This document shows positions 1 through 14,712 of a stretch of 23,892 bases of DNA, piece after piece. A program made the position numbers and the translations under genes. The notes under the pieces were generated by a model. That model worked only from the letters and a program-made list of their open reading frames with translations. It was not told the DNA's origin and made no database searches. The first letter of the stretch is position 1. Every line of letters begins with the position of its first letter. The stretch is taken from contig MGQK01000100.1 in assembly GCA_001797815.1 (NCBI GenBank), forward strand, positions 6,880-30,771. Reading direction: 5' to 3'. The stretch comes from Deltaproteobacteria bacterium RBG_13_61_14. GTDB lineage: Bacteria; RBG-13-61-14.

Positions 1-844
1 CGGTGACCATACCCACGCGCGAATGCCGCTCGAACTCGCTAAAGACGCCTTTCTTGAACTCTTCGATCCGGTCGGGATCCAGCGGGTCGGGAAGCACGAT
101 GTAGCCGCGCTTTTTCAGGAGCTGGGCTTTTTCCAGGCTTTTGATTTTCACCTCGCCCCCGATGTCCTTGGCGCCCTGGCCCCATTTCAGCTCCACGATC
201 TTCACACCCAGTTTATCGAGGGCGTATTCCTGGGCGCTCAGACGGGTATCTTCCACGTTGGCCTGCACCACAATCCCGCCATAGCCATTCTTTTGCCATT
301 CTTGATAGAGTTTCACCCGGCGTTTAAGCTCGGGCGATTCCGTCACCCGGCCGTTCTTGATCTTGGCGTTTTCGTCCATGCCACAGACGTTCTCGCCGAT
401 GGTAAGGATGACCCCGCTCATGGCCGCGCCGATGGCCAGGCCTTCCCAGTTGATGGCGGCCACGTTGGTGGATCCGAGACCGCCGATGATAAAGGGCAAG
501 AGCAGCTTAATGCCCTGGTCGCGGCCCAGCCGGGCCTCCAGGTTGACATTGGGGAAAATGGCCTTGTCCGAATCTTGTTCAATGCCCACCGCGCCGACCG
601 CGGTCCCCATGATGTTGAAATGGGAAAGGTCCACCGGGTAATCCTTCTGGGAGGCCATACTGGAAATGCCGAAGGGCTGGGGGTAAATCACCTCGTGGCC
701 GCGGTAAGCGCTCTTCCCGATCTCGCACATCCCGATGCAGCCGTCCACGCAGCTCACGCACATGCCGCTGATCGGGCTCCAGTCCCCGCCGGTCCGATTC
801 TTGGTCAAGGTCGCGGCGGTCGCATTATACCTTGTTAAAGTCAT
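1..844 (-). CDS. FMN-binding glutamate-synthase-domain protein (GltB central-domain type), 3' end outside window
   Basis: The frame is open from the ATG at 844 to the window edge, giving the first 281 residues. AAAGGAG (858-852) lies 7 nt before the start. The protein has an N-terminal C-x2-C-x3-C-x3-C motif (C29, C32, C36, C40), likely for an Fe-S cluster, then a barrel resembling the FMN domain of glutamate synthase. Glycine-rich stretches such as IGGLGSTN, VVQANVED and KWGQGAKDIGGE are near the family's substrate/FMN loop (QGAKPG-like in GltB). The glutaminase and GXGXG domains of full GltB are not seen in this part. In the family the FMN barrel reduces an imine to glutamate with electrons from Fe-S clusters or ferredoxin; the substrate here is unknown. 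It is the last visible gene of the NuoE/F/G-like operon, 86 bp after the preceding stop, so the NADH module may feed it. Family confident, reaction inferred. Confidence 0.8.
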   Translation of the reverse strand, partial: MTLTRYNATAATLTKNRTGGDWSPISGMCVSCVDGCIGMCEIGKSAYRGHEVIYPQPFGISSMASQKDYPVDLSHFNIMGTAVGAVGIEQDSDKAIFPNVNLEARLGRDQGIKLLLPFIIGGLGSTNVAAINWEGLAIGAAMSGVILTIGENVCGMDENAKIKNGRVTESPELKRRVKLYQEWQKNGYGGIVVQANVEDTRLSAQEYALDKLGVKIVELKWGQGAKDIGGEVKIKSLEKAQLLKKRGYIVLPDPLDPDRIEEFKKGVFSEFERHSRVGMVT

Positions 845-890
845 CCTCGGGCTCCTTTCATCTCCTGAATATCTCCAACTTCACACCCTC

Positions 891-915
891 CCCTCTCCCC
901 CGCTGGGGGAGAGGG
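891..915. repeat. REP-like palindrome between two operon genes
   Basis: An 11-bp perfect stem (CCCTCTCCCCC / GGGGGAGAGGG) encloses the 3-nt loop GCT. It lies between the 2Fe-2S protein gene and the FMN-domain gene, both on the minus strand. The same C/G-rich core recurs at 8681-8699 and 23832-23875, so it is a dispersed intergenic repeat. In mRNA it could protect the upstream message or lower read-through; no T-run follows on the minus strand, so it is not a classical terminator. Confidence 0.7.
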
Positions 916-930
916 TTTGTAATGCGAATC

Positions 931-1599
931 TCAATAATAAACTTTATGGCCGGCCGCGCCCACGCTTTGCGAGCAGTTCACGCAAACCGGGCAGGTCTCC
1001 ACCGGAAACACATTCTGGCAGCCGCCGCACAGGCCATTGACCAGGCGGTCGGCCGTGCAGGCCCGCTCGCAGACCGGGCAGATCCATTCGCAGCCGCCGC
1101 AGTTGCGGCACTCCTCCGGGGTGACGCTGAAAGCGGTGGCCACCTGTCGGCCGGTGCCCCGGCCGACAAATCCGATCCCTCCGGACTGCATCTGCTCCTT
1201 GCAATAGCGCACGCACAGCCCGCAGAGGATGCAATTCTTATCCTTGATCTGGAACCGGACCCGATTGACCCCGAAATTGGCGGCCAGGTCTTGCAGGGTC
1301 TTGGAACTGGGGCAGGAGGCCAATAAAAGCTCGATGATCACTTTGCGGGTGGCTTTGACCCGGGCGGAGTTGGTGAAGATCACCTGGCCTTCAGCCGCGG
1401 GCAAGGTGCAGGACGCTTCCAGGGACGAGCGCTTCCCCTTGGCCACCTCCACCAGGCAAACCCTGCAGGCCCCGTAGGGACTCAGTCCGGGGTGGTGGCA
1501 AAGCGTGGGGATCACGATGCCCAGGTCCCGGGCGGCCTCGACCACGGTGGTCCCCTCGGGCACGCGGGTTGGAATTCCGTCAATCGTCAGCTCAACCAT
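931..1599 (-). CDS. NuoG/HndD N-terminal-like [2Fe-2S]/[4Fe-4S] electron-transfer protein with Cys-rich tail
   Basis: This 222-residue protein starts with a plant-ferredoxin-type [2Fe-2S] domain (C34, C45, C48, C64), as at the N-terminus of NuoG and of the HndD/HydA FeFe-hydrogenase subunits. Two C-x2-C-x2-C-x3-C sites follow (C123-C133 and C164-C174), predicted to bind [4Fe-4S] clusters. The chain stops before any molybdopterin or H-cluster domain, so it is an electron wire rather than a catalytic subunit. The tail carries seven more cysteines (C177, C181, C191, C194, C203, C206, C209) in zinc-ribbon-like CxxC pairs, for 20 cysteines in all. It follows the NuoF-like gene by 12 nt and should be the third subunit of that NADH module. 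Domain assignment is seen in sequence; subunit role is inferred. Confidence 0.85.
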   Translation of the reverse strand: MVELTIDGIPTRVPEGTTVVEAARDLGIVIPTLCHHPGLSPYGACRVCLVEVAKGKRSSLEASCTLPAAEGQVIFTNSARVKATRKVIIELLLASCPSSKTLQDLAANFGVNRVRFQIKDKNCILCGLCVRYCKEQMQSGGIGFVGRGTGRQVATAFSVTPEECRNCGGCEWICPVCERACTADRLVNGLCGGCQNVFPVETCPVCVNCSQSVGAAGHKVYY

Positions 1600-1611
1600 A
1601 CTTGTTCCTCG

Positions 1612-3471
1612 CTAGGCGACCAGCACCGCATCAAACTTGCAGTTGTCGCGGCACAGCCCGCACTGGATACATTTCTGCTGGTCAATCCGGTGCGGCGCTT
1701 TCTTTTCGCCCCAGATGGCCTCTTCCGGACAATTGCGGGCGCAGACCCCGCACCCGTTGCAAAGGCCGGGATCAATGCTGAACGTGATCAGCGCCTTGCA
1801 GACCCCGGCCGGACAGCGCCGCTCCCGGATGTGGGCCTCGTATTCCTCGCGGAAATACTTGATGGTGGAAAGCACCGGATTGGGAGCGGTCCCGCCCAGG
1901 GCGCAGAGCGAGGCCTCTTTGACCACTGCGCCCAGCTCTTCCAGGAGCTCGATATCTCCGGCTTTGCCCTCTCCGGCGGTGATGCCGGTGAGAAGGTCCA
2001 GCATGCGGTCCAGGCCTTCCCGGCAGGGCACGCATTTGCCGCAGGATTCTTCGGTCAAGAACTTGATGAAATAGCGGGCCAAGTCCACCATGCAGGTGGA
2101 CTCGTCCATCACGATCATGCCGCCCGAGCCCATCATCGAACCGACTTCGGTGAGCCGGTCAAAATCCACCGGCAGATCCAGCAGGCTCTCGGGGATGCAG
2201 CCGCCCGAAGGACCGCCGGTCTGGACCGCCTTGAATTTTTTGCCGCCCGGGATCCCGCCGCCGATGCCGTAAACGATTTCCCGCAGCGGGATTCCCATCG
2301 GCACTTCCACCAGCCCGGTGTTGTTGATCTTGCCGACCAGGGAAAAGATCTTGGTCCCCTTGCTCCCCTTGGTCCCGATCCGGGAATACCACTTCGCGCC
2401 CCGGGTAATAATCAGCGGCACGTTGGCCCAGGTCTCGACGTTGTTGAGGTTGGAGGGCTGGCCGTTCAAACCGCTGACCACGGTGTGGATATGCTTGGGA
2501 CGCGGTTCCCCGATCTTGCCTTCCAGGGACGCCATCAGCGCGGTGGACTCGCCGCAGACAAACGCGCCGCCCCCGCGGGAAATCTTGACGTCAAAGTCAA
2601 AACCCGATCCCAGGATGTTGCGGCCCAACAGGCCGGACTGTCGGGCCTGCCTCAGGGCAATTCCCAGATTCTTCACGGCCAGGGGATATTCGTGCCGCAC
2701 GTAAACATAACCCTCGTGACTGCCGATGGCATAAGCGCCGATGATCATTCCCTCAAGCACGCTGTGCGGATTGCCTTCCAACAATCCTCGATCCATATAG
2801 GCGCCGGGATCGCCCTCATCGGCGTTGCAAATGACATAGCGAGTCCCGTTGCGGGAAGGGGCATTGCGACATGATTCCCATTTGCGGCCGGTGGGGAAGC
2901 CGCCTCCGCCGCGGCCGCGCAGACCGGAAAGCTTAACCTCTTCGATGATTTTTACGGGCTTCATCTTGAAAAGAGCCTTGGCCAAAGCGGAGTAGCCTCC
3001 AATCGCCAAATAGTCCTCGATGCGATGGGGGTCAATCAGGCCATTATTTCCAAAGACCGGCCGTTTCTGTTTTTTGTAGAAGGGGATCTCGGATTCGCGC
3101 TTGATTTTTTTTCCGGTAACCGGGTCGGAATACAAAAGCCTTTGGACGACTTTCTTTTTGACGACGGACTCGGCCAGGATTTCCGGGACGTCCTTGGGGG
3201 CCACGCGCTCATACAGGATGCCTTCCGGGCGAATGACCACCAGGGTGGCGCGCTCGCAGAAGCCCTGACAACCCGTCAGTTTGAACTCCACCTTGCCGCT
3301 TAACCTTTTGCGTTTTACTTCCCGAGCAAATGCCTGATAGACCGCCTCGCATCCGCAGGCCAGGCACCCGGGTCCCCCGCAAATCGCCACCGAAGGCTTC
3401 CCCGACTTTCGCCGTCCGGCCAGCCGGTCTTGCAGTCTTTTCAACTCAAGCGGAGACTTTAATTTTTTCAT
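1612..3471 (-). CDS. NuoF/HndC-like NADH-binding flavoprotein with extra ferredoxin domain
   Basis: The 619-residue chain from the ATG at 3471 has four parts. An N-terminal thioredoxin-like [2Fe-2S] region has C31, C36, C39, C41 and GCQGFC (C68, C72). The 51-kDa core has the glycine-rich GLRGRGGGGF (183-192) and NADEGDPGAY (216-225) motifs that bind NADH and FMN. An ESCGKCVPC motif (C477, C480, C483) plus C523 binds the N3-type [4Fe-4S] cluster. Two C-terminal ferredoxin sites lie at C571-C581 and C601-C611. This layout is typical of HndC/HydB of soluble bifurcating complexes and is longer than respiratory NuoF. The start at 3471 was preferred to 3531 because family similarity begins there and GAAGAGAG lies just upstream; it overlaps the NuoE-like gene by 26 nt. 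Role: NADH/NAD+ exchange with ferredoxin-like clusters. Confidence 0.9.
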   Translation of the reverse strand: MKKLKSPLELKRLQDRLAGRRKSGKPSVAICGGPGCLACGCEAVYQAFAREVKRKRLSGKVEFKLTGCQGFCERATLVVIRPEGILYERVAPKDVPEILAESVVKKKVVQRLLYSDPVTGKKIKRESEIPFYKKQKRPVFGNNGLIDPHRIEDYLAIGGYSALAKALFKMKPVKIIEEVKLSGLRGRGGGGFPTGRKWESCRNAPSRNGTRYVICNADEGDPGAYMDRGLLEGNPHSVLEGMIIGAYAIGSHEGYVYVRHEYPLAVKNLGIALRQARQSGLLGRNILGSGFDFDVKISRGGGAFVCGESTALMASLEGKIGEPRPKHIHTVVSGLNGQPSNLNNVETWANVPLIITRGAKWYSRIGTKGSKGTKIFSLVGKINNTGLVEVPMGIPLREIVYGIGGGIPGGKKFKAVQTGGPSGGCIPESLLDLPVDFDRLTEVGSMMGSGGMIVMDESTCMVDLARYFIKFLTEESCGKCVPCREGLDRMLDLLTGITAGEGKAGDIELLEELGAVVKEASLCALGGTAPNPVLSTIKYFREEYEAHIRERRCPAGVCKALITFSIDPGLCNGCGVCARNCPEEAIWGEKKAPHRIDQQKCIQCGLCRDNCKFDAVLVA

Positions 3472-3967
3472 CTCTCTTCGGCCTCGAGAATTTCTTGTAG
3501 CCAGCCAGCATCTTTTTGACTTTCCCGACATTCATTTGCCCGTAATATTTTTCATCCACCATCACAATCGGGCCCAAAGCGCACGTGCCCAGGCAGTTGA
3601 CGGTTTCCAGGGTAAACTCGAAATTCGGGGTGGTCTCGCCTTTGGCAACGCCCAGATGCCTTTCCACTTCAGCGAGAACCGCGGGCGCCCGGCGCACATG
3701 GCAGGCGGTGCCCAGGCAGACATGAACCAGGTGCTTGCCCCGGGGCTTGAGGCTGAAAGCCTTGAAAAAGGTGGCCACGCCGTAGACCTGGACCAGGGGC
3801 AGTCCCAGGTTCTTGGCGACCCGGCGCAGCGCCTTCTCCGGGAGGTAATGATATTCGGCTTGAACGTCCTGGAGGATGGAGATCAGCGAGTCTTTGCCGC
3901 CGCCGTTGCTCTGAATGATGCTCTCCACGCACGCGCAATTCTTATCCACTCTTCGCAGCGCACCCAT
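3446..3967 (-). CDS. NuoE/HndA-like thioredoxin-fold [2Fe-2S] subunit
   Basis: A 173-residue protein of the 24-kDa subunit family. The N-terminal helical region (about 25-75) contains the family stretch around YHYLPEKALRRVAK and VYGVATFFKAF. A thioredoxin fold follows with the four [2Fe-2S] ligands in the standard C-x4-C...C-x3-C order (C84, C89, C125, C129: CLGTAC and CLGTC). Length is normal for the family, with a short basic C-terminal tail (161-173). GGAAAGGA lies upstream of the ATG at 3967. In this family NuoE passes electrons between the NuoF flavin and the rest of the complex. It precedes and overlaps the NuoF-like gene, the usual EF order, and follows the two small paralogs. Confidence 0.92.
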   Translation of the reverse strand: MGALRRVDKNCACVESIIQSNGGGKDSLISILQDVQAEYHYLPEKALRRVAKNLGLPLVQVYGVATFFKAFSLKPRGKHLVHVCLGTACHVRRAPAVLAEVERHLGVAKGETTPNFEFTLETVNCLGTCALGPIVMVDEKYYGQMNVGKVKKMLAGYKKFSRPKRDEKIKVSA

Positions 3968-3986
3968 AGTTCCAGTCCTTTCCGGT

Positions 3987-4292
3987 TTATTTGCCTTCGC
4001 AAAACCTTTTGGCGTAGTCGAGGTAATGCTTGAGCAGCCACATCTTTTCCAAAAATTCCGGCCAGCCGCACTGGGGTTGGAAGCCCTTCGCGGCCGGGGG
4101 CGTCACCAGGTAACCGTGGGTGACGGTGCCCTGCATCTCGTCCCAGAGCTCGCCCCAGGTATCCAAGGCATCTTGCAAGACCGAACCCGTGACGTTGCGA
4201 AAATGCCGGAGCTTGTCTTCGGGCAGGACTACTTGATAGGTGTGCTCCGGATCTTCCCCCGTGTTCGAGATCACTCGAAATTCCCTGGTCAT
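3987..4292 (-). CDS. small hypothetical protein, paralog B of a tandem pair
   Basis: I do not recognise this 101-residue protein. It is soluble, with no signal peptide or membrane segment. It shares with its upstream neighbour an SVLxDALxxW segment (37-46) and a C-terminal helical block CGWxEFxEKxxLLxHYLxYxKRxCEG (75-100), where 18 of 26 positions are identical. Conserved cysteines are C75 and C98. Its start overlaps the stop of paralog A as ATGA (4292-4289), so the two are translationally coupled, and GAGAGG precedes the start. It ends 19 nt before the NuoE-like gene. A heteromeric accessory, scaffold or redox-sensing role with the NADH module is possible but unproven. Confidence 0.8.
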   Translation of the reverse strand: MTREFRVISNTGEDPEHTYQVVLPEDKLRHFRNVTGSVLQDALDTWGELWDEMQGTVTHGYLVTPPAAKGFQPQCGWPEFLEKMWLLKHYLDYAKRFCEGK

Positions 4293-4642
4293 GGCTCAAC
4301 CTCTCTTTCCTCTCGAGCGGAGTCATCCACCGACCCTTCGCACAAGCGTTTGCTGTATTCGAGGTAGTGACCCAGGAGGTGGAGCTTTTCCCGGAATTCC
4401 TGCCACCCGCAACTGGGCAGCGGCCGCGAAGGGGCTTCCTTCCCGTCAATGATTTCCAGGCAGGTTCGGGGATCTTGGCAAGCGTCCTGCATCTCCAGCC
4501 AGACTTTGAGCGCGTCCTTCAACACGCTGGCCGCCACCCCGCGATAGTGGTTAAGTCGGGAATTGACGCGCAGAATCTCCCGGCGGATGTGCTCATCGTG
4601 GCTGCTCTGGGCCTCGGCTGTGGCTTTTTTTCGCTCTTCCAT
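4289..4642 (-). CDS. small hypothetical protein, paralog A; first gene of the NADH/Fe-S operon
   Basis: A 117-residue protein of unknown function. The N-terminus (1-35) is charged and helical, with no export signal. SVLKDALKVW (39-48) and CGWQEFREKLHLL (78-90) match paralog B, and the final 14 residues are acidic. It has two cysteines more than paralog B (C55, C61) besides the shared C78 and C101. GAGGGA lies 6 nt before the ATG at 4642. It is the first gene downstream of the σ54 promoter at 4748-4733, with a leader of about 80 nt. Tandem duplication followed by divergence is the simplest origin. The gene order ties it to the NuoEFG-like trio. Confidence 0.8.
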   Translation of the reverse strand: MEERKKATAEAQSSHDEHIRREILRVNSRLNHYRGVAASVLKDALKVWLEMQDACQDPRTCLEIIDGKEAPSRPLPSCGWQEFREKLHLLGHYLEYSKRLCEGSVDDSAREEREVEP

Positions 4643-4732
4643 CTCGCATCCCTCATCGGACCGGGAAAACCGAAAATTTCAATCCCGCTGAAACAATTCT
4701 GAATTTCAGAAGAGATTTGCGAGAGATGGAAC

Positions 4733-4748
4733 AGCAAAGGATATGCCA
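4733..4748 (-). promoter_or_regulatory. σ54 (-24/-12) promoter for the small paralog-NuoEFG-like operon
   Basis: Read on the minus strand this is TGGCATATCCTTTGCT, matching the σ54 consensus TGGCAY-N5-TTGCW with exact GG-N10-GC spacing. Transcription should start near 4722, about 80 nt before the first ATG at 4642. An NtrC-family σ54 activator is encoded directly upstream, and enhancer-like inverted repeats lie about 210-240 bp up. A second promoter at 22224-22239 has the same TGGCAT-N5-TTGCT form. Confidence 0.75.
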
Positions 4749-4970: not shown

Positions 4971-5100
4971 GAAACTATCTCAAAACCCCTGTTTTTTTGT
5001 CATGATACAAAATGCCTAATTTGATCCGCCATAAAATCAAGGGCACAGTGTAGGGGCGACCGGCCGGTCGCCCCTACCTTCCCGGTTTTGAGATAGTCTC
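4971..5100. mobile_element. 130-bp MITE-like element with 17-bp terminal inverted repeats and TAA duplication
   Basis: The left end GAAACTATCTCAAAACC and the reverse complement of the right end (GAGACTATCTCAAAACC) match at 16 of 17 bases. TAA is directly repeated at 4968-4970 and 5101-5103, as expected of a target-site duplication. There is no ORF inside. A 28-bp perfect palindrome (5050-5077, arms starting GTAGGGGCGACC) lies in the right half. It is non-autonomous; the transposase would be elsewhere. It abuts the ntrC stop codon: the TAG at 5102-5100 uses TA from the duplication and the terminal base of the element. Confidence 0.75.
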
Positions 5101-6557
5101 TAAAGGGTGGGTTTTTCATTGGGAGGAACTTGGAGATTGTATTTTTTCATTCGGTGGCGCAAGGTGTTTCGGCTGATGCCGAGCGCCTGGGCGGTCTTGA
5201 CCTGGTTATTGCCGCATTCCTGGAGCACTCTCCCGATCAGCACCTCTTCGACCAGCTCGATCATGTTGGCATGAACCTTTTGGCGGGAAAGCCGCAGGAT
5301 TTGAGGAATCAGATCCTCCAACTGGTCCCTGACGAGTTGCGCGATTTGCTCCCGATTCCGGGCTTGCCCCACTTCCTCTTTACCGCCTTCGAGCCTGACA
5401 TGCTCTTCCTGAATGACATCTCCGGCGCACAACAGCACCGCCCGCCGGATGCAGTTCTCCAGCTCCCGGACGTTCCCCGGCCAGGAATAGGATTGCAGCC
5501 GCTGCATCGCGGGGTCGGCCACGTACCGAATCGGCTTGCGGTATTCTTCACTGAACCGCCCCGTGAAATATTCCACCAGTTTGGGGATATCGTCGAGACG
5601 CTTGCGCAGCGGGGGAAGCGGGATGGAAATGATTTTCAATCGCCAGTAAAGGTCTTCCCGGAACTTGCCTTGCTCCACGGCTTTTTCCAGGTTCTGGTTG
5701 GTGGCGGCCAAAAGCCTCACGTCCACCTTGATGGTCTCTTTGCCTCCCAGCCTTTCAAACTCGCCCTCTTGCAGCATGCGCAGCACCTTGGCCTGGGTGG
5801 AAAGGGACATGTCGCCGATCTCATCAAAGAACAAGGTGCCGCCGTCGCACCGCTCGAACTTTCCGAGCTGGGTCCGCTCCGCCCCGGTAAAGGCGCCGCG
5901 CTCATATCCGAACAACTCGCTTTCAAACAGGGTATCCGGGATGGCGGCGCAATTCACGGTCAGAAAGGGTTTCTGAGTGCGAAGACTGTGATGGTAGATG
6001 GCCCGGGCCACCAGCTCTTTCCCGGTCCCGCTTTCCCCGGTAATCAACACGGTCACGTCTTTTTCCGCCACCTGCCCGATCAGCTTATACACCTCCTGCA
6101 TGCTCTTGTGGCTGCCCACGATTTTCACCGTTCCTTTTGCCGTAGCGGGGGCTTTCTCCTTCGCGCTTCCGAAACTGACTACTTCCTTCATCAGGCGGTT
6201 AACTTCCAGCGCGTCCAGGACGATCCGCTTCAACTCCTCCCGGTCAAACGGCTTGAGCAAGTAGTCGTAAGCCCCCAGTTTCATGGCTTCAATCGCGGTT
6301 TCGGTGGTGCCGTAGGCGGTCATGATAATGATCGGGGTCTTGACCTGGGTTTGGCGGATCTCCCGGAGCGTGTCGAGCCCGCTCAACCCGGGCATTTTGT
6401 AATCGAGCAGGATGAGGTCCAAGGCTTCCAGGGCCAGCAGTTCGAGCGCCGAGCGGCCATCGGTGCAGACGCTGACCTCGAAGCCCTGTTTGGAGAAGAA
6501 ACGACGGAGGAAGTGGATCAGCCCCTCGTCGTCGTCAACAATTAGGATCTTTTCCAT
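5100..6557 (-). CDS. NtrC-family σ54-dependent response regulator
   Basis: The 485-residue protein from the ATG at 6557 (MEKILIVDDD) has three domains. A receiver domain spans about 1-120 with acidic pocket D8-D10, phospho-acceptor D52 and K102. An AAA+ σ54-activation domain has Walker A GESGTGKE, the σ54-contacting loop GAFTGA and Walker B GTLFFDEIG. The C-terminal Fis-type helix-turn-helix includes GNNQVKTAQALGISRNTLRHR. A longer frame to 6650 exists but only adds residues that belong to the kinase gene in another frame. The start overlaps the end of the kinase gene by 23 nt, so the pair is co-expressed. The preserved GAFTGA means it should activate σ54 promoters, and the nearest is at 4748-4733, driving the next operon on the same strand. 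Length is normal for the AtoC/NtrC/ZraR group; the exact signal is unknown. Confidence 0.93.
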   Translation of the reverse strand: MEKILIVDDDEGLIHFLRRFFSKQGFEVSVCTDGRSALELLALEALDLILLDYKMPGLSGLDTLREIRQTQVKTPIIIMTAYGTTETAIEAMKLGAYDYLLKPFDREELKRIVLDALEVNRLMKEVVSFGSAKEKAPATAKGTVKIVGSHKSMQEVYKLIGQVAEKDVTVLITGESGTGKELVARAIYHHSLRTQKPFLTVNCAAIPDTLFESELFGYERGAFTGAERTQLGKFERCDGGTLFFDEIGDMSLSTQAKVLRMLQEGEFERLGGKETIKVDVRLLAATNQNLEKAVEQGKFREDLYWRLKIISIPLPPLRKRLDDIPKLVEYFTGRFSEEYRKPIRYVADPAMQRLQSYSWPGNVRELENCIRRAVLLCAGDVIQEEHVRLEGGKEEVGQARNREQIAQLVRDQLEDLIPQILRLSRQKVHANMIELVEEVLIGRVLQECGNNQVKTAQALGISRNTLRHRMKKYNLQVPPNEKPTL

Positions 6558-8406
6558 TGGCGTCCCTGTCGAGAGCCTCCCCCAGGGGAAGAAAAATCGA
6601 AAAGGTGGTCCCGGCATCCGCTCGGCTTTCCACCCGCACCTCCCCGCCATGCCCCTGCACCGTGGAGCGGACGATGCTCAGCCCCAGGCCGGTGCCGGAA
6701 GCCTTGGTGGTGAAAAAGGGATCGAACAGGTTGGGAATATCCTCCGGGGCGATCCCCGGCCCGGTGTCCGAAATATCAATCCGGATGCCGGTTAGCGGCG
6801 CACTGCTTGGGCTTAACTGGGCCAACGACGCGGCCACCAGCAATCGGCCCCCATGCGGCATGGCTTCCAGCGCGTTCACCAGCAAATTCAACAGCGATTC
6901 CCCCAACTGCTTCTGGTCCCCCCGGATCTTTGGCAATTCCTGGTCTATTGTAACATTGACCGTAGTTTCCTGCTGAATGGCCCGCGGCCGCACCACCAGC
7001 AGCGCCTCTTCAATTAATTGGGCGACATCCATCGTGGAAAGGACCGGCTCCTGGGGTTTGGCGAAATCCAGGAACCGGTTGATGGTGGCCTCGATCCTCC
7101 GGATCTGGTCCATGGCCACCTGGAAGTCCTCCCGGCACTCCGGCGAAATTTCGATCTCGCCTTGCACGGATTCCAGGAAGAGCTTGAGCGAGGTAAGAGG
7201 GGTCCGGATTTCGTGGGTAACCCCCGCGGCCAACCGGCCCAGGGCCGCCAGTTGTTCCGAGCGAGCCGCGGCCAATTCCGTCTTCTTCAGCTTGAGGTCG
7301 GTTTCTTGGAGCTCCGCCGCGGCTAGATCGGCTTTGGCCTCCAGACTCTGCTGGCGGGCTTGGAGTTGTTCCGCCATCGAGGCGAAGGCGCGGGAGAGCA
7401 TCCCGATTTCATCCGCGCGCCGAGTCTCGATCAGCGAGCTCTCAAACTTACCCCGGGCCAGAGCATCCGCGGCCAGGCTCAGCTTGTGGATCGGGTTGAC
7501 GACCGAGTAGGACACCAGCCCGGCCAAAAGCACGACCCCCAGGATGGAAAATCCAATCACCAAGTAAATGTAACGCTTGAGCCGGTCCGCGCTTTGGAAG
7601 GCCTCATCCCGGTCCTGCTCCACCACCAGATACCAGTCCGTCCCGGCAATGGGCCGCGAGGTCCCCAGCACCTCGATCCCGCGATAGTCAACATAAATGC
7701 TTTTGCGATACCCGCTGCCGAAAATGTTCTTGAAACTTTCCGATTGGGCGATATTCTCGGTCAGGATCCGCCGGGGTTGCTTGTGGGCGAGGAAGGTGCC
7801 CTCCTTATCCACCAGATAACATTCGCCGGTCTCTCCCAGGGATACCTTCAGCAGAATGGAAAGGATGGTGTAGGTGCCGACGGTGGCGCAGACGACGCCC
7901 TGGACCGCGCCAGCATCGCCGAAGATCGGCGCGGAAATGCGAAAGACCGATTCTTTTTTCTCCGGGTCCAGACCAATCTCGGAAAGATAGAGCCGGCCGG
8001 CCAAGGAATGCCGGTACCAGTCTTCCCCTAAGTTCGGGCCCGGCCGGCCCAAGCTGTTAAATACCACCCCGCCGTCCCGCCCGATCACCACAAACCCGTT
8101 GTAGACTTCGTAATTGGTTCTCACCAGGTTCAAGAAAGGCGCGATTTGCGCCGGATGCATGGACTGGAGCACCGAGGAATCCGCTACCACCCTCAGGTCG
8201 GCCTTGCGTTCTGAAATCCACCGCTCCAGCAGAGCGGCTTTATCATTCGCGACATTTTCCAGCTGGTTGGAGACCATATTCATAATGAGATCACTGGCGC
8301 TTTCGAGGGCAAACGCGGCCACGATGCCCAGCGGAACCAGCGCCACCATCAGGAAGAGCAGCATGACTTTGATCCGCAAGTTATTGATGAGGGACCTGGT
8401 GGGCAA
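6535..8406 (-). CDS. membrane sensor histidine kinase (dCACHE-HAMP-HisKA-HATPase), partner of the NtrC-like regulator
   Basis: A 623-residue protein with a transmembrane helix at about 13-34 and a second at 279-303, flanking a roughly 245-residue periplasmic sensor region of dCACHE type. HAMP follows (about 303-355), then a coiled coil, the HisKA domain with phospho-accepting H398 in GVTHEIRTPL, and the ATP-binding domain with N box (NLLVNALEAM), G1 (DTGPGIA), F (DPFFTT) and G2 (GTGLGL) motifs. The start is TTG at 8406: AAGGAG lies 8 nt upstream, and the N-terminus MPTRSLINNLRIK directly precedes the first membrane helix. dCACHE domains usually sense small extracellular ligands such as organic acids or amino acids; the ligand cannot be read here. 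It is the first gene of the two-gene regulatory operon. Confidence 0.93.
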   Translation of the reverse strand: MPTRSLINNLRIKVMLLFLMVALVPLGIVAAFALESASDLIMNMVSNQLENVANDKAALLERWISERKADLRVVADSSVLQSMHPAQIAPFLNLVRTNYEVYNGFVVIGRDGGVVFNSLGRPGPNLGEDWYRHSLAGRLYLSEIGLDPEKKESVFRISAPIFGDAGAVQGVVCATVGTYTILSILLKVSLGETGECYLVDKEGTFLAHKQPRRILTENIAQSESFKNIFGSGYRKSIYVDYRGIEVLGTSRPIAGTDWYLVVEQDRDEAFQSADRLKRYIYLVIGFSILGVVLLAGLVSYSVVNPIHKLSLAADALARGKFESSLIETRRADEIGMLSRAFASMAEQLQARQQSLEAKADLAAAELQETDLKLKKTELAAARSEQLAALGRLAAGVTHEIRTPLTSLKLFLESVQGEIEISPECREDFQVAMDQIRRIEATINRFLDFAKPQEPVLSTMDVAQLIEEALLVVRPRAIQQETTVNVTIDQELPKIRGDQKQLGESLLNLLVNALEAMPHGGRLLVAASLAQLSPSSAPLTGIRIDISDTGPGIAPEDIPNLFDPFFTTKASGTGLGLSIVRSTVQGHGGEVRVESRADAGTTFSIFLPLGEALDRDANGKDPNC

Positions 8407-8938: not shown

Positions 8939-9520
8939 ATGCTTTCGCAAGCTCGCCCTGGCAGTAAAGGGCGGCCGCTAGCGGATCGCTTACGAGAGTT
9001 CACCGGCGAATCCGCGGCCAAGTGCTACCAATGCGGGAAGTGTTCCGCGGGTTGCCCTCTGGCCGCGGAAATGGACTTCCCGCCGAGCCAGATTCTCCGG
9101 ATGCTTCAGCTCGGATTCCCCACCTTAGAAGCCAAAGCCATCGCGTCCCTTTCCATCTGGCTGTGTCTTACCTGCGAGACCTGCCTGGCGCGCTGTCCCC
9201 AGGAAGTTGACCTTCCCAAGATCATGGAGTTTTTGCGCGAAGAATCCTTGCGCGAGAAAAAATTTCATCCTCAGGCCAAAGAGATTATCGCCTTTCATCG
9301 AGCTTTTCTCGACTCGGTTCAGGCCGCGGGCCGGCTTTATGAGATCGGTCTGATCGCGGATTATAAGGCCCGTTCCCGCCATCTGTTTCAGGATGTGCTG
9401 GTGGCTCCCAAGCTTTTCTGGCGCGGCAAGCTGAAACTTTTTCCCCATCTGATCAAGGACCGGTCCAATATTTCCCGGATATTTTCTAAGACTCTCGGCA
9501 AGAAAGAGCCGTCCGGATGA
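8939..9520 (+). CDS. hdrC: heterodisulfide reductase subunit C-like protein
   Basis: A 193-residue soluble protein with two C-x2-C-x2-C-x3-C ferredoxin sites, C29-C39 (CYQCGKCSAGC) and C76-C86 (CLTCETCLARC), the hallmark of HdrC. It carries electrons from the HdrA flavin to the HdrB active-site clusters. The C-terminal half is a basic helical extension typical of bacterial HdrC. AGAAGGAG lies just upstream of the ATG. Its stop overlaps the hdrB start as ATGA (9517-9520). As first gene of the operon it follows the promoter at 8767-8795. There is no membrane segment, so it belongs to the soluble HdrABC type rather than HdrDE. Confidence 0.93.
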   Translation: MLSQARPGSKGRPLADRLREFTGESAAKCYQCGKCSAGCPLAAEMDFPPSQILRMLQLGFPTLEAKAIASLSIWLCLTCETCLARCPQEVDLPKIMEFLREESLREKKFHPQAKEIIAFHRAFLDSVQAAGRLYEIGLIADYKARSRHLFQDVLVAPKLFWRGKLKLFPHLIKDRSNISRIFSKTLGKKEPSG

Positions 9521-10431
9521 AGCTCGGATACTTTCCCGGTTGTTCGCTCCAGGGCTCGGCCGGCGAGTTTGATGAATCCTTGCAAGCGATCGCTCCCGCG
9601 CTCGGGCTCGAGCTGATCGAGATTCCGGACTGGAGCTGCTGCGGCGCCAGCGCGGCGCACAATTTGAATCGCCTGCTCGCGCTCGCGCTTCCGGCGCGGA
9701 CTCTGGCCCTGGCCGAAAGAGCCGGTTTCCGCGAGGTTCTGGTCCCGTGCTCGGCGTGTTACAGCCGCTTGATCTTAACCCGGCATGAGCTTGAGCAAGA
9801 CGAGGGTCTTCGCCGGCAGGTCTCCGAGATTATCGGGATGGAATATCAGGGGACCGTGCGGGTCTTGAACATCTTGGAAGTGATGGGTCAAATTTTCCAG
9901 GATGGTCTCAAGGGCAAAATCACCAAGCCCTTTGAGCATCCGGTCGCCTGCTATTATGGGTGCCTTCTGGTCCGGCCGCCCAAGGTGGTTCAATTTGACC
10001 GCCCGGAAGATCCCCGGACCATGGACGAGCTGATGAAGAAAATCGGGGCCGAGCCGATTGATTGGGCTTTTAAGGTGGAATGCTGCGGGGCCGGGTTTTC
10101 GATCTCCCGCACCGACCTGGTGGCCAAGCTCTCGAGCAAGATCCTGGCCGACGCTCAGCGCCGGGGCGCCGAGGCGATCATTGTGGCCTGTCCCATGTGT
10201 CACGCCAACCTGGACATGCGCCAGGAAAAAGCGGAGAAGTGGGCTGGCAAAAAATATTCGATGCCGGTGCTGTATTTAACCCAGGCCATCGGGCTGGCCC
10301 TGGGTCTTCCGGAAAAGAAACTGGCTTTGCATCAGCATCTGGTCCCGGTTTCGTTTCCAGTTAAAGCTAAACCAGCGGCTAAGGCAAAAGCCGAAACCGC
10401 CTCGCAACCAGCGGGCCAGTCAGAGGAGTAA
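9517..10431 (+). CDS. hdrB: heterodisulfide reductase subunit B-like protein
   Basis: A 304-residue protein with two CCG domains. The first has C9, C41, C42, C78 and C81 (C-x31-CC-x35-C-x2-C). The second has C145 and C149, then C189, C190, C225 and C228. In characterised HdrB these bind two noncubane [4Fe-4S] clusters that cleave disulfide bonds; all ligands are present, so it should be active. Natural substrate in bacteria lacking coenzymes M and B is unsettled; DsrC-type or other thiol proteins have been proposed. The Ala/Lys/Pro-rich tail (about 282-304) is a variable extension. The next gene starts 2 nt after its stop, and that gene's Shine-Dalgarno (GAGGAG) lies inside the hdrB end. Confidence 0.93.
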   Translation: MKLGYFPGCSLQGSAGEFDESLQAIAPALGLELIEIPDWSCCGASAAHNLNRLLALALPARTLALAERAGFREVLVPCSACYSRLILTRHELEQDEGLRRQVSEIIGMEYQGTVRVLNILEVMGQIFQDGLKGKITKPFEHPVACYYGCLLVRPPKVVQFDRPEDPRTMDELMKKIGAEPIDWAFKVECCGAGFSISRTDLVAKLSSKILADAQRRGAEAIIVACPMCHANLDMRQEKAEKWAGKKYSMPVLYLTQAIGLALGLPEKKLALHQHLVPVSFPVKAKPAAKAKAETASQPAGQSEE

Positions 10432-10433
10432 AG

Positions 10434-12425
10434 ATGTCCCGGATTGGAGTTTTCCTCTGCCACTGCGGCGAGAACATCGCGGGCACGGTTGACCCGGGCA
10501 AAGTGGTGGAAGCCGCGAACCGGATTCCGGGCGTGGTGCACAGTATTGATTATAAATATATGTGTTCGGACCCGGGGCAGAGCCTGATTCGGGAAGCGAT
10601 CAAGGAAAAGGGTCTGACCGGCGTGATCGTCGCCGCTTGTTCGCCCCGGATGCATGAGCCCACTTTTCGCCGGGTTTGCGCGGAATCCGGCTTGAATGCT
10701 TTCCTGTGCGAGATGGCCAATGTCCGGGAGCATTGCTCCTGGGTGCACGAAAAGTCCGAGCTCACCACCGCGAAAGCCATTGACCTGGTCCGGATCATGG
10801 TGGAAAAAGCCAAAAGGAATCGGCCCCTGTTCCCGATCAAGGTCCCGGTGACCAAAACCGCGCTGGTCTTGGGCGGAGGGATTGCCGGGATTCAGGCCAG
10901 CCTGGATATCGCCAACGCCGGACACAAAGTCATCCTGGTGGAGCGAGACCCTTCCATCGGCGGCCACATGGCCCAGCTCTCCGAGACCTTTCCCACCCTG
11001 GATTGCTCCCAGTGCATCCTGACCCCGCGCATGGTCGAGGTCGCCCAGCATCCGAACATCACCCTCCATACTTATTCCGAACTGGAAAGCGTGGATGGCT
11101 TTATCGGCAACTTCAAGGTCAAGATCCGGAAAAAGGCGCGGGGCATTGATGAAAAGCTCTGCACCGGCTGCGGGGTCTGCGCCCAGAAATGTCCGCTCAA
11201 GAAGATCCCGAGCGAGTTCAACGCCGCGATGGGAATGCGAACCGCCATCTATACTCCTTTCCCCCAGGCGGTGCCGAATAAGCCGGTGATTGACAAGAAA
11301 CGCTGCACCTATTACCTCAAGGGCAAATGCAAAGCCTGCGAAAAAGCCTGCCCCGCCGAGGCCATTCGTTTTGACCAGCCCGATGAGATAATCGAGGTCG
11401 AGACCGGGGCGATTGTCTGCACCACCGGCTTCGAGGTGCTCTCGACCGAGTTCTTCCCGGAATATGGCTACGGTAAATATAAGGATGTCATCAACGGGCT
11501 CCAGTTTGAAAGACTGGCTTCGGCTTCCGGACCAACCCTGGGCGCGATCCGGCGGCCTTCGGACGGCAAGGAGCCGGAAACCGTGGTCTTCATCGCCTGC
11601 GCCGGCTCCCGGGACCCGGCCAAGGGAATTGAATACTGCTCCAAGATCTGCTGTATGTACACGGCCAAGCACGCCATGCTCTACAAGCATAAGGTCCACC
11701 AGGGCACTCCCTACGTGTTTTACATGGACATCCGGGCCGGGGGGAAGATGTATGAGGAGTTCGTGCGCCGGGCCATTGAAGAGGATGGGGTGAAATATAT
11801 CCGGGGCCGGGTGTCGCGGATCTATGAGCAGGATGGGAAATTGATCGTGAAAGGAGCCGACACTCTGCTCGGCGCGCAACCGGTCGAGATCGAGGCGGAC
11901 CTGGTGGTGCTGGCCACCGCGATGGTGGCGAATTCCGGGGCCGAAGAGCTGGCCAAAAAAATTCACGTGAGCTATGACTCCTACCACTTCCTCGCCGAGG
12001 CGCATCCCAAGCTCCGGCCGGTGGAGACCAATACTGCCGGCATCTTCCTCGCCGGAGCCTGTCAAGCGCCCCGGGATATCCCGGAGACCGTGGCCCAGGC
12101 CTCGGGCGCGGCCAGCAAGGTGGCGGCGCTGTTTTCCGCGGACGAGCTCTCCCGCGAGCCGGTGATCGCCGTGGTCCATCGAACCGCGCCCCCCATTTTC
12201 TCGATCTGCGAGGGATGCTTCATGTGCGAGCAGGCCTGTCCGTTTCAGGCGATCGAGCGGGAGGAAATCAAGACCCGGGACGGCAAGCTGATCAAGGTGG
12301 TGGCCAAGGTCAATCCGGGGGTCTGCCAGGGATGCGGCACTTGCGTGGCCCTGTGCCGGGCAAAAGCCCTAGACCTGCAAGGTTTCAGCAACGAGCAGGT
12401 TTATGCCGAAGTGATGGCCGTGTAG
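10434..12425 (+). CDS. hdrA: heterodisulfide reductase subunit A, flavin electron-bifurcating subunit
   Basis: A 663-residue protein, the usual HdrA size. The N-terminal domain has scattered conserved cysteines (C9, C11, C44, C69, C101) as in the HdrA extra-cluster region. A thioredoxin-reductase-like FAD domain begins at VLGGGIAG (145-152) with ERDPSIGGHM and a CSQC motif (C191, C194). Ferredoxin sites sit at C243-C253 and C291-C306 (insertion type), and two more at the C-terminus (C592-C602, C631-C641). In this family HdrA carries the bifurcating FAD that splits electron pairs between low-potential ferredoxin and the HdrB disulfide site. It has no selenocysteine codon and no fused MvhD domain; MvhD is the next gene. 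Central subunit of the complex. Confidence 0.95.
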   Translation: MSRIGVFLCHCGENIAGTVDPGKVVEAANRIPGVVHSIDYKYMCSDPGQSLIREAIKEKGLTGVIVAACSPRMHEPTFRRVCAESGLNAFLCEMANVREHCSWVHEKSELTTAKAIDLVRIMVEKAKRNRPLFPIKVPVTKTALVLGGGIAGIQASLDIANAGHKVILVERDPSIGGHMAQLSETFPTLDCSQCILTPRMVEVAQHPNITLHTYSELESVDGFIGNFKVKIRKKARGIDEKLCTGCGVCAQKCPLKKIPSEFNAAMGMRTAIYTPFPQAVPNKPVIDKKRCTYYLKGKCKACEKACPAEAIRFDQPDEIIEVETGAIVCTTGFEVLSTEFFPEYGYGKYKDVINGLQFERLASASGPTLGAIRRPSDGKEPETVVFIACAGSRDPAKGIEYCSKICCMYTAKHAMLYKHKVHQGTPYVFYMDIRAGGKMYEEFVRRAIEEDGVKYIRGRVSRIYEQDGKLIVKGADTLLGAQPVEIEADLVVLATAMVANSGAEELAKKIHVSYDSYHFLAEAHPKLRPVETNTAGIFLAGACQAPRDIPETVAQASGAASKVAALFSADELSREPVIAVVHRTAPPIFSICEGCFMCEQACPFQAIEREEIKTRDGKLIKVVAKVNPGVCQGCGTCVALCRAKALDLQGFSNEQVYAEVMAV

Positions 12426-12440
12426 TTCAGGGGTTATAAG

Positions 12441-12875
12441 ATGGCGGAGTTTGAGCCCAAGATCGTTGCCTTTGTCTGCAACTGGTGCACCTATGCCGGC
12501 GCTGACCTCACCGGCACCAGCCGAATCAAGTATGCCCATAATGTCCGGATGATTCGACTCCCCTGCACCGGCCGGATCGATTTCATGCTCTTGCTCAAGG
12601 CCTTTGCCCGGGGCGCCGATGGCGTGATTGTTTCCGGCTGTCACCCGGGCGATTGCCATTACACGGCCGGCAACTATCACGCGCGCCGGCGCTGGATCCT
12701 CTTCCGGCAATTGCTCGATTTCCTGGGATTTGATACCCAGCGGCTTCATTTCGCCTGGGTGAGCGCCGCCGAAGGCGCCAAATGGGCGGAGACGGTCAAC
12801 TCGGTGGTGGAGGAAGTTCGCCGGCTCGGCCCGTTTCAGAACTATCAGCAACTGGCTCGGGCTGGGATCGAATAA
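12441..12875 (+). CDS. flxD: MvhD/FlxD-like [2Fe-2S] electron-transfer subunit
   Basis: A 144-residue protein of the hydrogenase-delta (MvhD/FrhD) family. Likely ligands are C13 and C16 (CNWC), C42 (LPCTGRID) and C67, C72 (SGCHPGDCHY). In methanogens MvhD connects the hydrogenase to HdrA; in bacterial Flx clusters the same subunit connects the NADH-oxidising part to HdrA. No hydrogenase large subunit is encoded nearby, and a FAD/NAD protein ends the operon, so the Flx version is supported. Located 15 nt after hdrA and 13 nt before the next gene. Confidence 0.9.
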   Translation: MAEFEPKIVAFVCNWCTYAGADLTGTSRIKYAHNVRMIRLPCTGRIDFMLLLKAFARGADGVIVSGCHPGDCHYTAGNYHARRRWILFRQLLDFLGFDTQRLHFAWVSAAEGAKWAETVNSVVEEVRRLGPFQNYQQLARAGIE

Positions 12876-12888
12876 AAGAGGATCGGGG

Positions 12889-13692
12889 ATGGACCAGTTA
12901 CGGAAAAAAGCTCGCGAGCTCCTGGAGAGCGGAGCCGTGAAGACCGTGATCGGCTATGGCGAAGGCTCGGGCAAGGCGGTGCGAGCGGTTTTTATCCGCC
13001 AGCCGGAGCAAACGGAAAAGCTCATCCTGGATGAAAGGTGCCGGCAGAATCTGGCCGTCTATCTTCTCAAGCCGGAAGTGAAGAATCTGGGCAAGCCGGC
13101 GGTAGTGGCCAGGCTTCCGGTATTGCGGAGCATTTTAGAATTAGCCGCGGAGAGTCAACTGGCCGACGAGCAGATGGTCATCCTGGGAATTTCTCCGGAC
13201 GGTCAGCTCCTGGATTTAGCCGGCCTGAAAGCCGTGGCCGATTATGTGTCCGCTCAGTCCCTGGAACTTCCTCCTCCGGAACGGGAGCAGTTGGAGCAGA
13301 TTGAAAAAAAGTCTCCGGCCGAGCGATGGAATTTCTGGCAAGAAGAATTTTCCCGCTGCGTGAAATGCTACGCCTGCCGGGCCAGTTGTCCGCTTTGCTA
13401 TTGCTCCCGCTGCGCGGTGGAGTGCAATCAGCCGCAGTGGATTTCATCTGCTTCCCATGCCCGGGGAAACCTGGAGTGGCATCTGGTGCGGGCGATGCAT
13501 CTGGCCGGAAGGTGCGTGAACTGCGGGGACTGTGCCCGCGCTTGTCCGGTGGGCATTCCGCTCAATCTTTTGACCCGAAAGCTGGGCGAGGAAGTGTTCA
13601 AGGATTTCGGACTTCGGGCCGGAACTACTCCCGAGCTGAAGTATGCGCTTGCCACCTTCCTACCCGAAGATCAAGAAGATTTTATCAGGTAA
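12889..13692 (+). CDS. flxC: FlxC-like Fe-S dicluster protein
   Basis: A 267-residue protein. Residues 1-150 form a domain without cysteine clusters whose start (LLESGAVKTVIGYGEG) resembles the N-terminal region of FrhB/FdhB-type subunits. The second part has two ferredoxin sites, C157-C167 and C209-C219, with an extra cysteine group between them (C170, C172, C175, C179; CPLCYCSRC). It should relay electrons between the NAD/FAD subunit and FlxD/HdrA. Order and spacing (6 nt to the next gene) match Flx clusters of sulfate reducers. The letter C versus B is assigned from order and could be swapped. The extra four-cysteine group may hold another metal site. Confidence 0.75.
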   Translation: MDQLRKKARELLESGAVKTVIGYGEGSGKAVRAVFIRQPEQTEKLILDERCRQNLAVYLLKPEVKNLGKPAVVARLPVLRSILELAAESQLADEQMVILGISPDGQLLDLAGLKAVADYVSAQSLELPPPEREQLEQIEKKSPAERWNFWQEEFSRCVKCYACRASCPLCYCSRCAVECNQPQWISSASHARGNLEWHLVRAMHLAGRCVNCGDCARACPVGIPLNLLTRKLGEEVFKDFGLRAGTTPELKYALATFLPEDQEDFIR

Positions 13693-13698
13693 CTTAAG

Positions 13699-14712
13699 AT
13701 GGCCGAAGCAAAATTACTGAAACAGGATTCATGGCCGGGGCTGTTTGCCAAGCTCCAAGCCAGCGGCCGGCGGATTCTGGCTCCTCGGGGCAAGCCCGGG
13801 CTGATCCTGTTTGAAGAGGTCTCTTCGCCCGAAGCAATGGCCTCGAAATATATTCAGACTACGCTTTCGGCCAAATCCGCCGTGTTTCCGCGCTGTGAGG
13901 AACTCTTCCAGTATCGGTTTGAGGGCAAGGATGTGAAAATCGAGGATCGCCAGCTCGATCCTCCACCGACCGTGATCTTCGGGCTTCGTCCTTGCGATGC
14001 TTCCAGTTTCGCGGTGCTGAACGCGGTTTTTTCCTGGGATTATCAGGATGCTTTTTTCAAATCCCGGCTGAAAAACACCGCGGTGATCGGAATCAGTTGC
14101 AGGGAGTCTGATGAATATTGCTTTTGCACCTCCGTCGGCGGAGGCCCCGGAGATACCAAAGGCAGCGATATCCTCCTCACCCGCCAGGACTCCGGCGATT
14201 ATCTCGCGGAGATCCTCACGGCTAAAGGCCAGGAGCTGGTTTCCCTGGCGCCGGAGCTTTTCGCAGAAGCCCCTTCGGCGGAAAAGGGAAAATTCCTGGC
14301 CCAGGTGCCGGCTCATTTCGAGGTCAAGGAACTAAGCCAGAAGTTGCCCCGCCTTTTTGACAGCGGCATCTGGGTGGAGCAATCCCTGCGCTGCCTGGGC
14401 TGTGGGGCCTGTGCCTTTGTCTGTCCCACTTGTGTGTGCTTTGACATCCAGGACGAGGCCGACCGGGAAGCCGGCTCCCGGCTGCGCTGCTGGGATTCCT
14501 GCGGTTTCTCTTTGTTCACGCTTCACACCTCCGGGCATAATCCGCGCTCGGTTCAAAGTCAAAGGTGGCGGCAGCGCCTGATGCATAAATTTTCCTACTT
14601 CCCGGAGCGACTGGAAGTGCTGGGCTGCGTGGGTTGTGGAAGATGCGCCCGCTCCTGTCCCGCGGACATGAACCTCCTGGAACACCTCCAAGCGATCATG
14701 GAGGCGCCGTGA
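13699..14712 (+). CDS. flxB: FlxB-like protein, AsrA/HydB (sulfhydrogenase beta) type Fe-S subunit
   Basis: A 337-residue protein of the AsrA/HydB/SudB-type dicluster family. The first part contains FGLRPCDASSF (94-104), a GISC segment and EYCFCTSVGG (139-148), as in this family. Ferredoxin sites lie at C232-C242 (CLGCGACAFVC) and C310-C320 (CVGCGRCARSC), with the family segment CWDSCGF (264-270) and an HNPR...RWRQRLMHKF stretch between them. In HydABGD sulfhydrogenases and Asr sulfite reductases this subunit pairs with a FAD/NAD subunit of the HydG/AsrB type, which here is the next gene. Its stop overlaps the flxA start by one base (TGATG). It carries electrons from FlxA toward FlxC/FlxD. 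Confidence 0.8.
   Translation: MAEAKLLKQDSWPGLFAKLQASGRRILAPRGKPGLILFEEVSSPEAMASKYIQTTLSAKSAVFPRCEELFQYRFEGKDVKIEDRQLDPPPTVIFGLRPCDASSFAVLNAVFSWDYQDAFFKSRLKNTAVIGISCRESDEYCFCTSVGGGPGDTKGSDILLTRQDSGDYLAEILTAKGQELVSLAPELFAEAPSAEKGKFLAQVPAHFEVKELSQKLPRLFDSGIWVEQSLRCLGCGACAFVCPTCVCFDIQDEADREAGSRLRCWDSCGFSLFTLHTSGHNPRSVQSQRWRQRLMHKFSYFPERLEVLGCVGCGRCARSCPADMNLLEHLQAIMEAP

Follow-up and report, generated by a model that had tools for sequence, protein, structure and literature searches.

A candidate Bfu-type complex with a glutamate-synthase-like FMN barrel, encoded by a conserved four-gene unit of Deltaproteobacteria bacterium RBG_13_61_14

Enzymes of the Bfu family are classified by their third substrate, and the modules listed for it are H-cluster, NiFe, Nfn, Fdh, F420, Wor, Bam, Codh, Por, Mbh, Nuo and Rub; the classification holds no GltB-like module, and 17 of its BfuB clades are without a function (PMC9304861). 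The histidine ligand of cluster B2 is reported to be conserved in virtually all bifurcating BfuB proteins and absent from non-bifurcating homologs (PMC9304861). In sub-type I BfuB of the Hydrogenedentota [FeFe]-hydrogenases, a DPD_II/FAD/NAD(P) domain replaces clusters B3/B4 (PMC11406978). The F420-dependent glutamate synthase clusters of ANME archaea use FrhB, a different donor (PMC9012536). We analysed a stretch of 23,892 nucleotides from Deltaproteobacteria bacterium RBG_13_61_14 (the window; contig MGQK01000100.1, positions 6,880 to 30,771), whose first 4,748 positions hold an operon with three NuoE-, NuoF- and NuoG-like genes and a gene for a GltB-like flavin mononucleotide (FMN) barrel protein. 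No description of a NuoEFG-GltB or Bfu-glutamate synthase enzyme was found in a search of the open literature.

We read this operon, with a probability of about 0.45, as encoding a soluble Bfu complex that would use the GltB-like barrel as its third-substrate subunit and would serve ammonium/glutamate metabolism under sigma-54 control. Since neither the Bfu classification nor the open literature shows such a unit, it would be an undescribed variant of the family. The operon and its regulatory genes comprise the following features:

2..844, minus strand: GltB-like FMN barrel protein, N-terminal 281 amino acids (aa); the 5' part of a gene that continues past the left edge
931..1599, minus strand: BfuA-type (NuoG-N-like) protein, with one [2Fe-2S] and two [4Fe-4S] motifs, no H-cluster and an extra C-terminal Cys cluster
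1612..3531, minus strand: BfuB (HndC/HydB/NuoF-type), with a thioredoxin-like 2Fe-2S domain, an FMN/NADH domain, B1, B2 and two C-terminal [4Fe-4S] clusters; the true start is likely at about 3471
3446..3967, minus strand: BfuC (NuoE/HydC-type [2Fe-2S] protein; PF01257)
3987..4292, minus strand: small protein P2, 101 aa, a paralog of P1, without a known family
4289..4642, minus strand: small protein P1, 117 aa, a paralog of P2, without a known family
4748..4733, minus strand: sigma-54 (-24/-12) promoter-like site TGGCATATCCTTTGCT, an exact match, 91 bp before the first ATG (P1)
5100..6650, minus strand: NtrC-family sigma-54 response regulator, upstream of the operon and on the same strand
6535..8406, minus strand: dCache-HAMP histidine kinase paired with the NtrC-type regulator

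An earlier, sequence-only reading had placed the six genes from the barrel to P1 as they stand here, all on the minus strand, and had described a soluble NADH-input module followed by a GltB-type FMN barrel with an N-terminal four-cysteine motif; both observations held, and the motif proved invariant in relatives. It had also proposed a new NADH-linked or bifurcating enzyme. An undescribed enzyme of the bifurcating type is indeed probable, but the NuoEFG trio is recognisable from its sequence as a BfuABC/HydABC core and is not new in itself. The best match of BfuB, over its full length, was HydB of the A. mobile NiFe-HydABCSL enzyme (7t2r, E 3e-234), followed by HydB of 8a6t and 7q4v. Its Pfam domains were PF01512, PF10589 and PF00037, with PF10531 just below the cut-off, so that it carries the 51K FMN, SLBB, NADH_4Fe-4S and 4Fe-4S ferredoxin domains that define the Bfu family. 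BfuC matched HydC (PF01257, E 5e-48) and conserves the C1 thioredoxin-like [2Fe-2S] cysteines. The short BfuA (222 aa) was closest to a 247-aa NuoG-like subunit (9mqx_A); PF13510 scored over the cut-off and the 4Fe-4S Pfam matches slightly under it.

The cluster ligands of this core are highly conserved in linked proteins, meaning those of operons in which the barrel gene accompanies NuoEFG. BfuB residues C480, H567, C573 and C578 align with the B2 ligands C438, H525, C531 and C536 of A. mobile HydB (PMC9304861) and are invariant in 74 of 74 linked BfuB, as are the B1 cysteines. Position 518, which aligns with C476 of HydB, is Thr in the window and mostly Thr or Ser among the 74. A B5-type motif is present in 69 of them, and the other five are cut at contig ends or misjoined. 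The [2Fe-2S] motif and both CX2CX2CX3C [4Fe-4S] motifs of BfuA are kept in 82 of 82 proteins. In addition, the BfuA of linked operons ends in a tail with CPxCx3C, a later CXXC and further cysteines; the BfuA of other operons is without it.

As the sequence-only reading had stated, no hydrogenase, molybdopterin or membrane-arm gene adjoins the operon. The window BfuA contains no H-cluster domain, and no NuoG molybdopterin-like domain is present as would be expected of a complex I NADH module. The unit shares with Bfu Types 2/3 with additional subunits the B1-B5 and C1 ligands, a short BfuA with a [2Fe-2S] and two [4Fe-4S] clusters, and a third-substrate gene beside the core, but differs from the family as described in having a GltB-like FMN barrel as its module and an extra Cys cluster in BfuA (PMC9304861). 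With the Stn and Nfn-Bfu transhydrogenases of Sporomusa and Thermococcus it shares the BfuB and BfuC core with NAD(H) and ferredoxin sites. Those enzymes carry a GltD-like NADP(H) domain in BfuA, whereas no window subunit has a GltD-like NADP(H)/FAD domain and the short BfuA is partnered by the barrel.

The GltB-like rather than GltD-like partner noted at first therefore stands for the window, but not throughout the family. BfuB of relatives occurs in two forms, about 45 with a ferredoxin-type 2x[4Fe-4S] end as in the window and about 31 (roughly 40% of relatives) with a fused GltD-like FAD/NAD(P) domain in place of those clusters. These fusions, in which Fer4_20 and FAD/NAD(P) domains replace B3/B4, were seen in operons without hydrogenase (L048:6026-9205, L047, L105 and others). 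They resemble the Hydrogenedentota sub-type I proteins, although the operons of the latter encode an H-cluster BfuA (PMC11406978) and none is found here. The window genome has at least four further BfuB-like genes (C77, C16, C76, C94), one of them GltD-fused.

GTDB genomes were scanned and yielded over 580 relatives of the barrel; the best 80 were retained, a set biased to close copies. NuoE-NuoF-NuoG-FMN was complete and in this order in 62 of 81 loci, across phyla; nearly all remaining loci are truncated by a contig end towards NuoE, and L062 truly departs from the order. A gene order that recurs across phyla in this way is far from what chance would give. Among the 192 genomes of a less biased set, the barrel was present in 36 and NuoEFG-linked in about 15, essentially the high-scoring ones. 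A tree of 115 barrels united the linked ones in a single clade, made up of 86 linked barrels, 2 located at contig edges and 1 tandem duplicate, which is nested among the solo barrels of a larger family. The linked unit occurs in about twenty phyla, among them Aminicenantes, Dehalococcoidia, Planctomycetes, Zixibacteria and ANME-2d; its archaeal carriers include ANME-2d, Methanophagales, Thermoplasmatota and Altiarchaeales. The expectation that the gene order would be conserved was thus borne out, but for a unit of four genes and not of six, since the two small paralogs were present in 4 of 386 genomes and are specific to their lineages. About 14 loci have, immediately upstream of NuoE, a protein of 120 aa that carries two Cys4 motifs and belongs to no Pfam family (L067:318-677, L052:6148-6507 and others), and a similar module is fused to the NuoE end in L095.

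Extending the contig to the left recovered the whole FMN-barrel gene (L006:6338-7723), with two N runs inside. The run of 81 bases at the left edge of the window corresponds to exactly 27 family residues by comparison with 80 relatives, which are about 525-545 aa long, and the run of 30 bases stands where relatives have about 70 residues. As this shorter run replaces about 70 codons, the 461-aa reading of the protein is a gap artefact; the window barrel is probably about 530 aa long, with an intact gene and gaps only in the assembly, a 4.7-Mb draft from a sparsely sampled lineage. Beyond the FMN gene lie DUF1846, a beta-galactosidase-like protein and a nitroreductase, and no hydrogenase, formate dehydrogenase or glutaminase was present past the left edge on the same contig, a result that leaves the sequence-only reading standing. 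The DUF1846 gene (L006:4594-6108) directly follows the FMN gene on the same strand; it was rejected as part of the unit, being present at the locus of the window genome only, among 95 loci.

The barrel itself resembles the synthase domain of glutamate synthase (GltS; GltB/GltD, or split GltB1/B2/B3). Its N-terminal CX2CX3CX3C and the synthase motifs QGAK and GGGTG (GGTG) are invariant, and PF01645 matches full-length relatives over two stretches. The N-terminal half encoded in the window was assigned no Pfam or NCBIfam family; an NCBIfam match to PorinMspA (E 0.003) was rejected as chance. Aligned by hhalign with GltB2 of the same genome, the family profile gave a probability of 93.8% (E 1.8e-7), and a 28-sequence profile found no direct sequence relative in the PDB at E 1e-5. 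The AlphaFold2 model of a relative (predicted local distance difference test, pLDDT, 77; predicted TM-score 0.84) shows the triosephosphate isomerase (TIM) barrel of FMN enzymes, with the N-terminal 36 residues, including most of the Cys motif, at low confidence. With glycolate oxidase and flavocytochrome b2 this model gave a VIA Z of about 25; among the Foldseek/VIA matches listed were glycolate/lactate oxidase and type-2 isopentenyl diphosphate isomerase barrels, and the absence of GltS from them excludes nothing. Of the four 2-oxoglutarate contacts of GltS, two (Gln and Lys of QGAK) are retained. The unit shares with glutamate synthase an FMN TIM barrel with QGAK and GGTG, a nitrogen-gene context and, in the relatives with fused BfuB, a GltD domain, but has its own CX2CX3CX3C and a NuoEFG-type electron source.

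The nitrogen-metabolism context had been missed in the first reading of the sequence. At 12 of 95 loci a gene for glutamate dehydrogenase (GDH) stands within about 10 kb, whereas eight control genes (ClpX, Lon, ClpP, trigger factor, HdrA, MobB, a sigma factor and MetF) were each seen at 0-1 loci, an approximately twelve-fold enrichment; NrpR was found at up to 5, GlnA at 4 and PII at 2 of the loci. In a member of the Dehalococcoidia (L027), Amt-PII-GlnA-NrpR directly precedes NuoEFG-FMN; in L153 (G173) the unit is followed by NrpR-PII, in L105 (G059) by GDH and malic enzyme, and in a member of the Zymogenaceae (L022) NrpR stands before it, divergent from NuoE. NrpR, PII, Amt and malic enzyme were assigned by inspection of their sequences rather than by a profile search. 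In L104 (G002), the order is NuoFG-FMN-HdrB-like-glutaminase, with a class-II glutaminase two genes downstream of the barrel, which the first reading had likewise missed. Solo barrel paralogs without NuoEFG (G000:C33:794-2368, L102; L109, L110, L111 and L112) have GAF-ANTAR regulators, CarA, or NrpR and GltB genes as neighbours.

The small proteins P1 and P2 are about 40% identical to each other, and their family was confined to two lineages. A family member lies beside glnA/GltS in the same genome (G000:C72) and another beside amt in G311, and P1 and P2 probably assist ammonium assimilation as accessory proteins specific to their lineages. The AlphaFold2 model of the family (pLDDT 60) was too weak for a structure search. 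Identity with the Cys-rich 120-aa protein found upstream of NuoE elsewhere was rejected, as there is no sequence similarity. The cluster in the same genome (L115; G000:C72:1-14000) reads glnA, P-family gene, metV/metF-like, GltB2 (998 aa, two barrel halves with Fe-S clusters) and a glutaminase/GXGXG protein; a MetVF pair within a GltS cluster is unusual.

Regulation by sigma-54 is suggested by exact sites before 8 of 64 homologous operons (the window and 7 others), against 0.8 expected. Kinase/NtrC pairs recur upstream of homologous operons, and the order kinase-regulator-P1-P2-NuoEFG-FMN is also found in G173, from a different lineage, with 65% identity for the kinase and 74% for the NtrC-type regulator. 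Divergent from the histidine kinase, window positions 8939-15551 on the plus strand encode HdrC-HdrB-HdrA-FlpD, then an Fe-S protein and subunits like sulfhydrogenase beta/gamma; together they form an NADH-linked heterodisulfide-reductase cluster that resembles FlxABCD-HdrABC.

From the features that can be read directly in the sequences (core ligands, BfuA cluster chain, four-gene unit, barrel fold and motifs, and nitrogen neighbourhood), a mechanism may be proposed. NADH would reduce the FMN of BfuB, and electrons would pass by B1, the [2Fe-2S] and [4Fe-4S] clusters of BfuA, the extra Cys cluster of its tail and the N-terminal four-Cys cluster of the barrel to the barrel FMN, which would reduce a substrate. 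By homology and neighbourhood, this would most likely be 2-iminoglutarate (2-oxoglutarate plus ammonia) or a close relative. The conserved core suggests that the complex bifurcates, with ferredoxin as the second partner at B3/B4, replaced there by NADP(H) in the GltD-fused relatives. The glutamate couple lies at about -0.12 V, and is not mid-potential; if it is the substrate, either glutamate formation would power NADH-driven ferredoxin reduction, or NADH and ferredoxin would jointly drive glutamate formation. The first direction would make the complex a bifurcating glutamate synthase (2 NADH + 2-oxoglutarate + NH4+ + oxidised ferredoxin -> 2 NAD+ + glutamate + reduced ferredoxin). That specific reaction seems improbable to us, and it would be near reversible because the mean of the glutamate and ferredoxin (about -0.5 V) potentials is near NADH.

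Several points weigh against a glutamate-forming Bfu complex. The [3Fe-4S] cysteines of GltS are missing from the barrel family, where the region reads GMARxPxAAxMVGKT; the Gln of GGQ, a 2-oxoglutarate contact in GltS, is an invariant Glu; and another such contact, an Arg, has no confident alignment to the barrel. Neither a glutaminase nor a GXGXG gene is part of the window operon, and the nitrogen neighbours are in many cases kilobases distant and outside the operon. A complete split glutamate synthase (GltB2 and GltB13, in a cluster with GlnA) is present elsewhere in the genome; the complex would thus act beside it and would not be the only glutamate route. As the glutamate couple is not mid-potential like H2 or formate, ordinary Bfu energetics do not map directly. 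Finally, the tree did not support monophyly of BfuB among linked operons; it therefore seems that BfuB was swapped, whereas BfuA and the barrel remained paired.

The alternative that survives best is that the same Bfu-barrel complex acts on another small molecule, such as a 2-oxo acid, an imine or an enoate, with the nitrogen genes as co-regulated neighbours. The lost cysteines and the invariant Glu would fit such a change, the substrate cannot be read from the fold alone, and the majority of linked loci lack a nitrogen gene within 10 kb. However, apart from two-component regulators, nitrogen genes are the sole recurrent metabolic neighbours; they recur in different phyla and near unlinked barrel paralogs as well. 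We regard another substrate as possible but rather unlikely. It is less likely still that the barrel is an electron-transfer subunit that feeds NADH/ferredoxin electrons to the split GltS (GltB2 with GltB1/3) elsewhere, or borrows its glutaminase. The P-family gene in the GltB2/GltB13/GlnA cluster of the same genome, the FMN barrels adjoining GlnA-GltB2-GltB13 in L062 and L112, and the single run of FMN, HdrB-like and glutaminase genes in G002 would all suit this arrangement; but the barrels of L062 and L112 are not NuoEFG-linked, GltB genes are generally missing from linked operons, and GltB2 carries ferredoxin-type clusters of its own. That BfuABC and the barrel are separate enzymes, merely co-transcribed, might be suggested by the solo paralogs, which imply a barrel able to work alone in other clades, and by the swapped BfuB partners, but is very improbable given an order and adjacency fixed over about twenty phyla, a single clade of linked barrels and the special C-terminal Cys arrangement shared by linked BfuA.

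If a Bfu complex with a GltB-like third-substrate subunit is indeed encoded here, one of the unassigned Bfu clades would be given a defined partner and a class of substrates open to testing. Were ammonium assimilation coupled to ferredoxin in it, a single enzyme would tie the nitrogen status of strict anaerobes to their energy conservation; and should the bifurcating glutamate synthase prove true, ammonium assimilation itself would supply low-potential electrons in energy-limited anaerobes.

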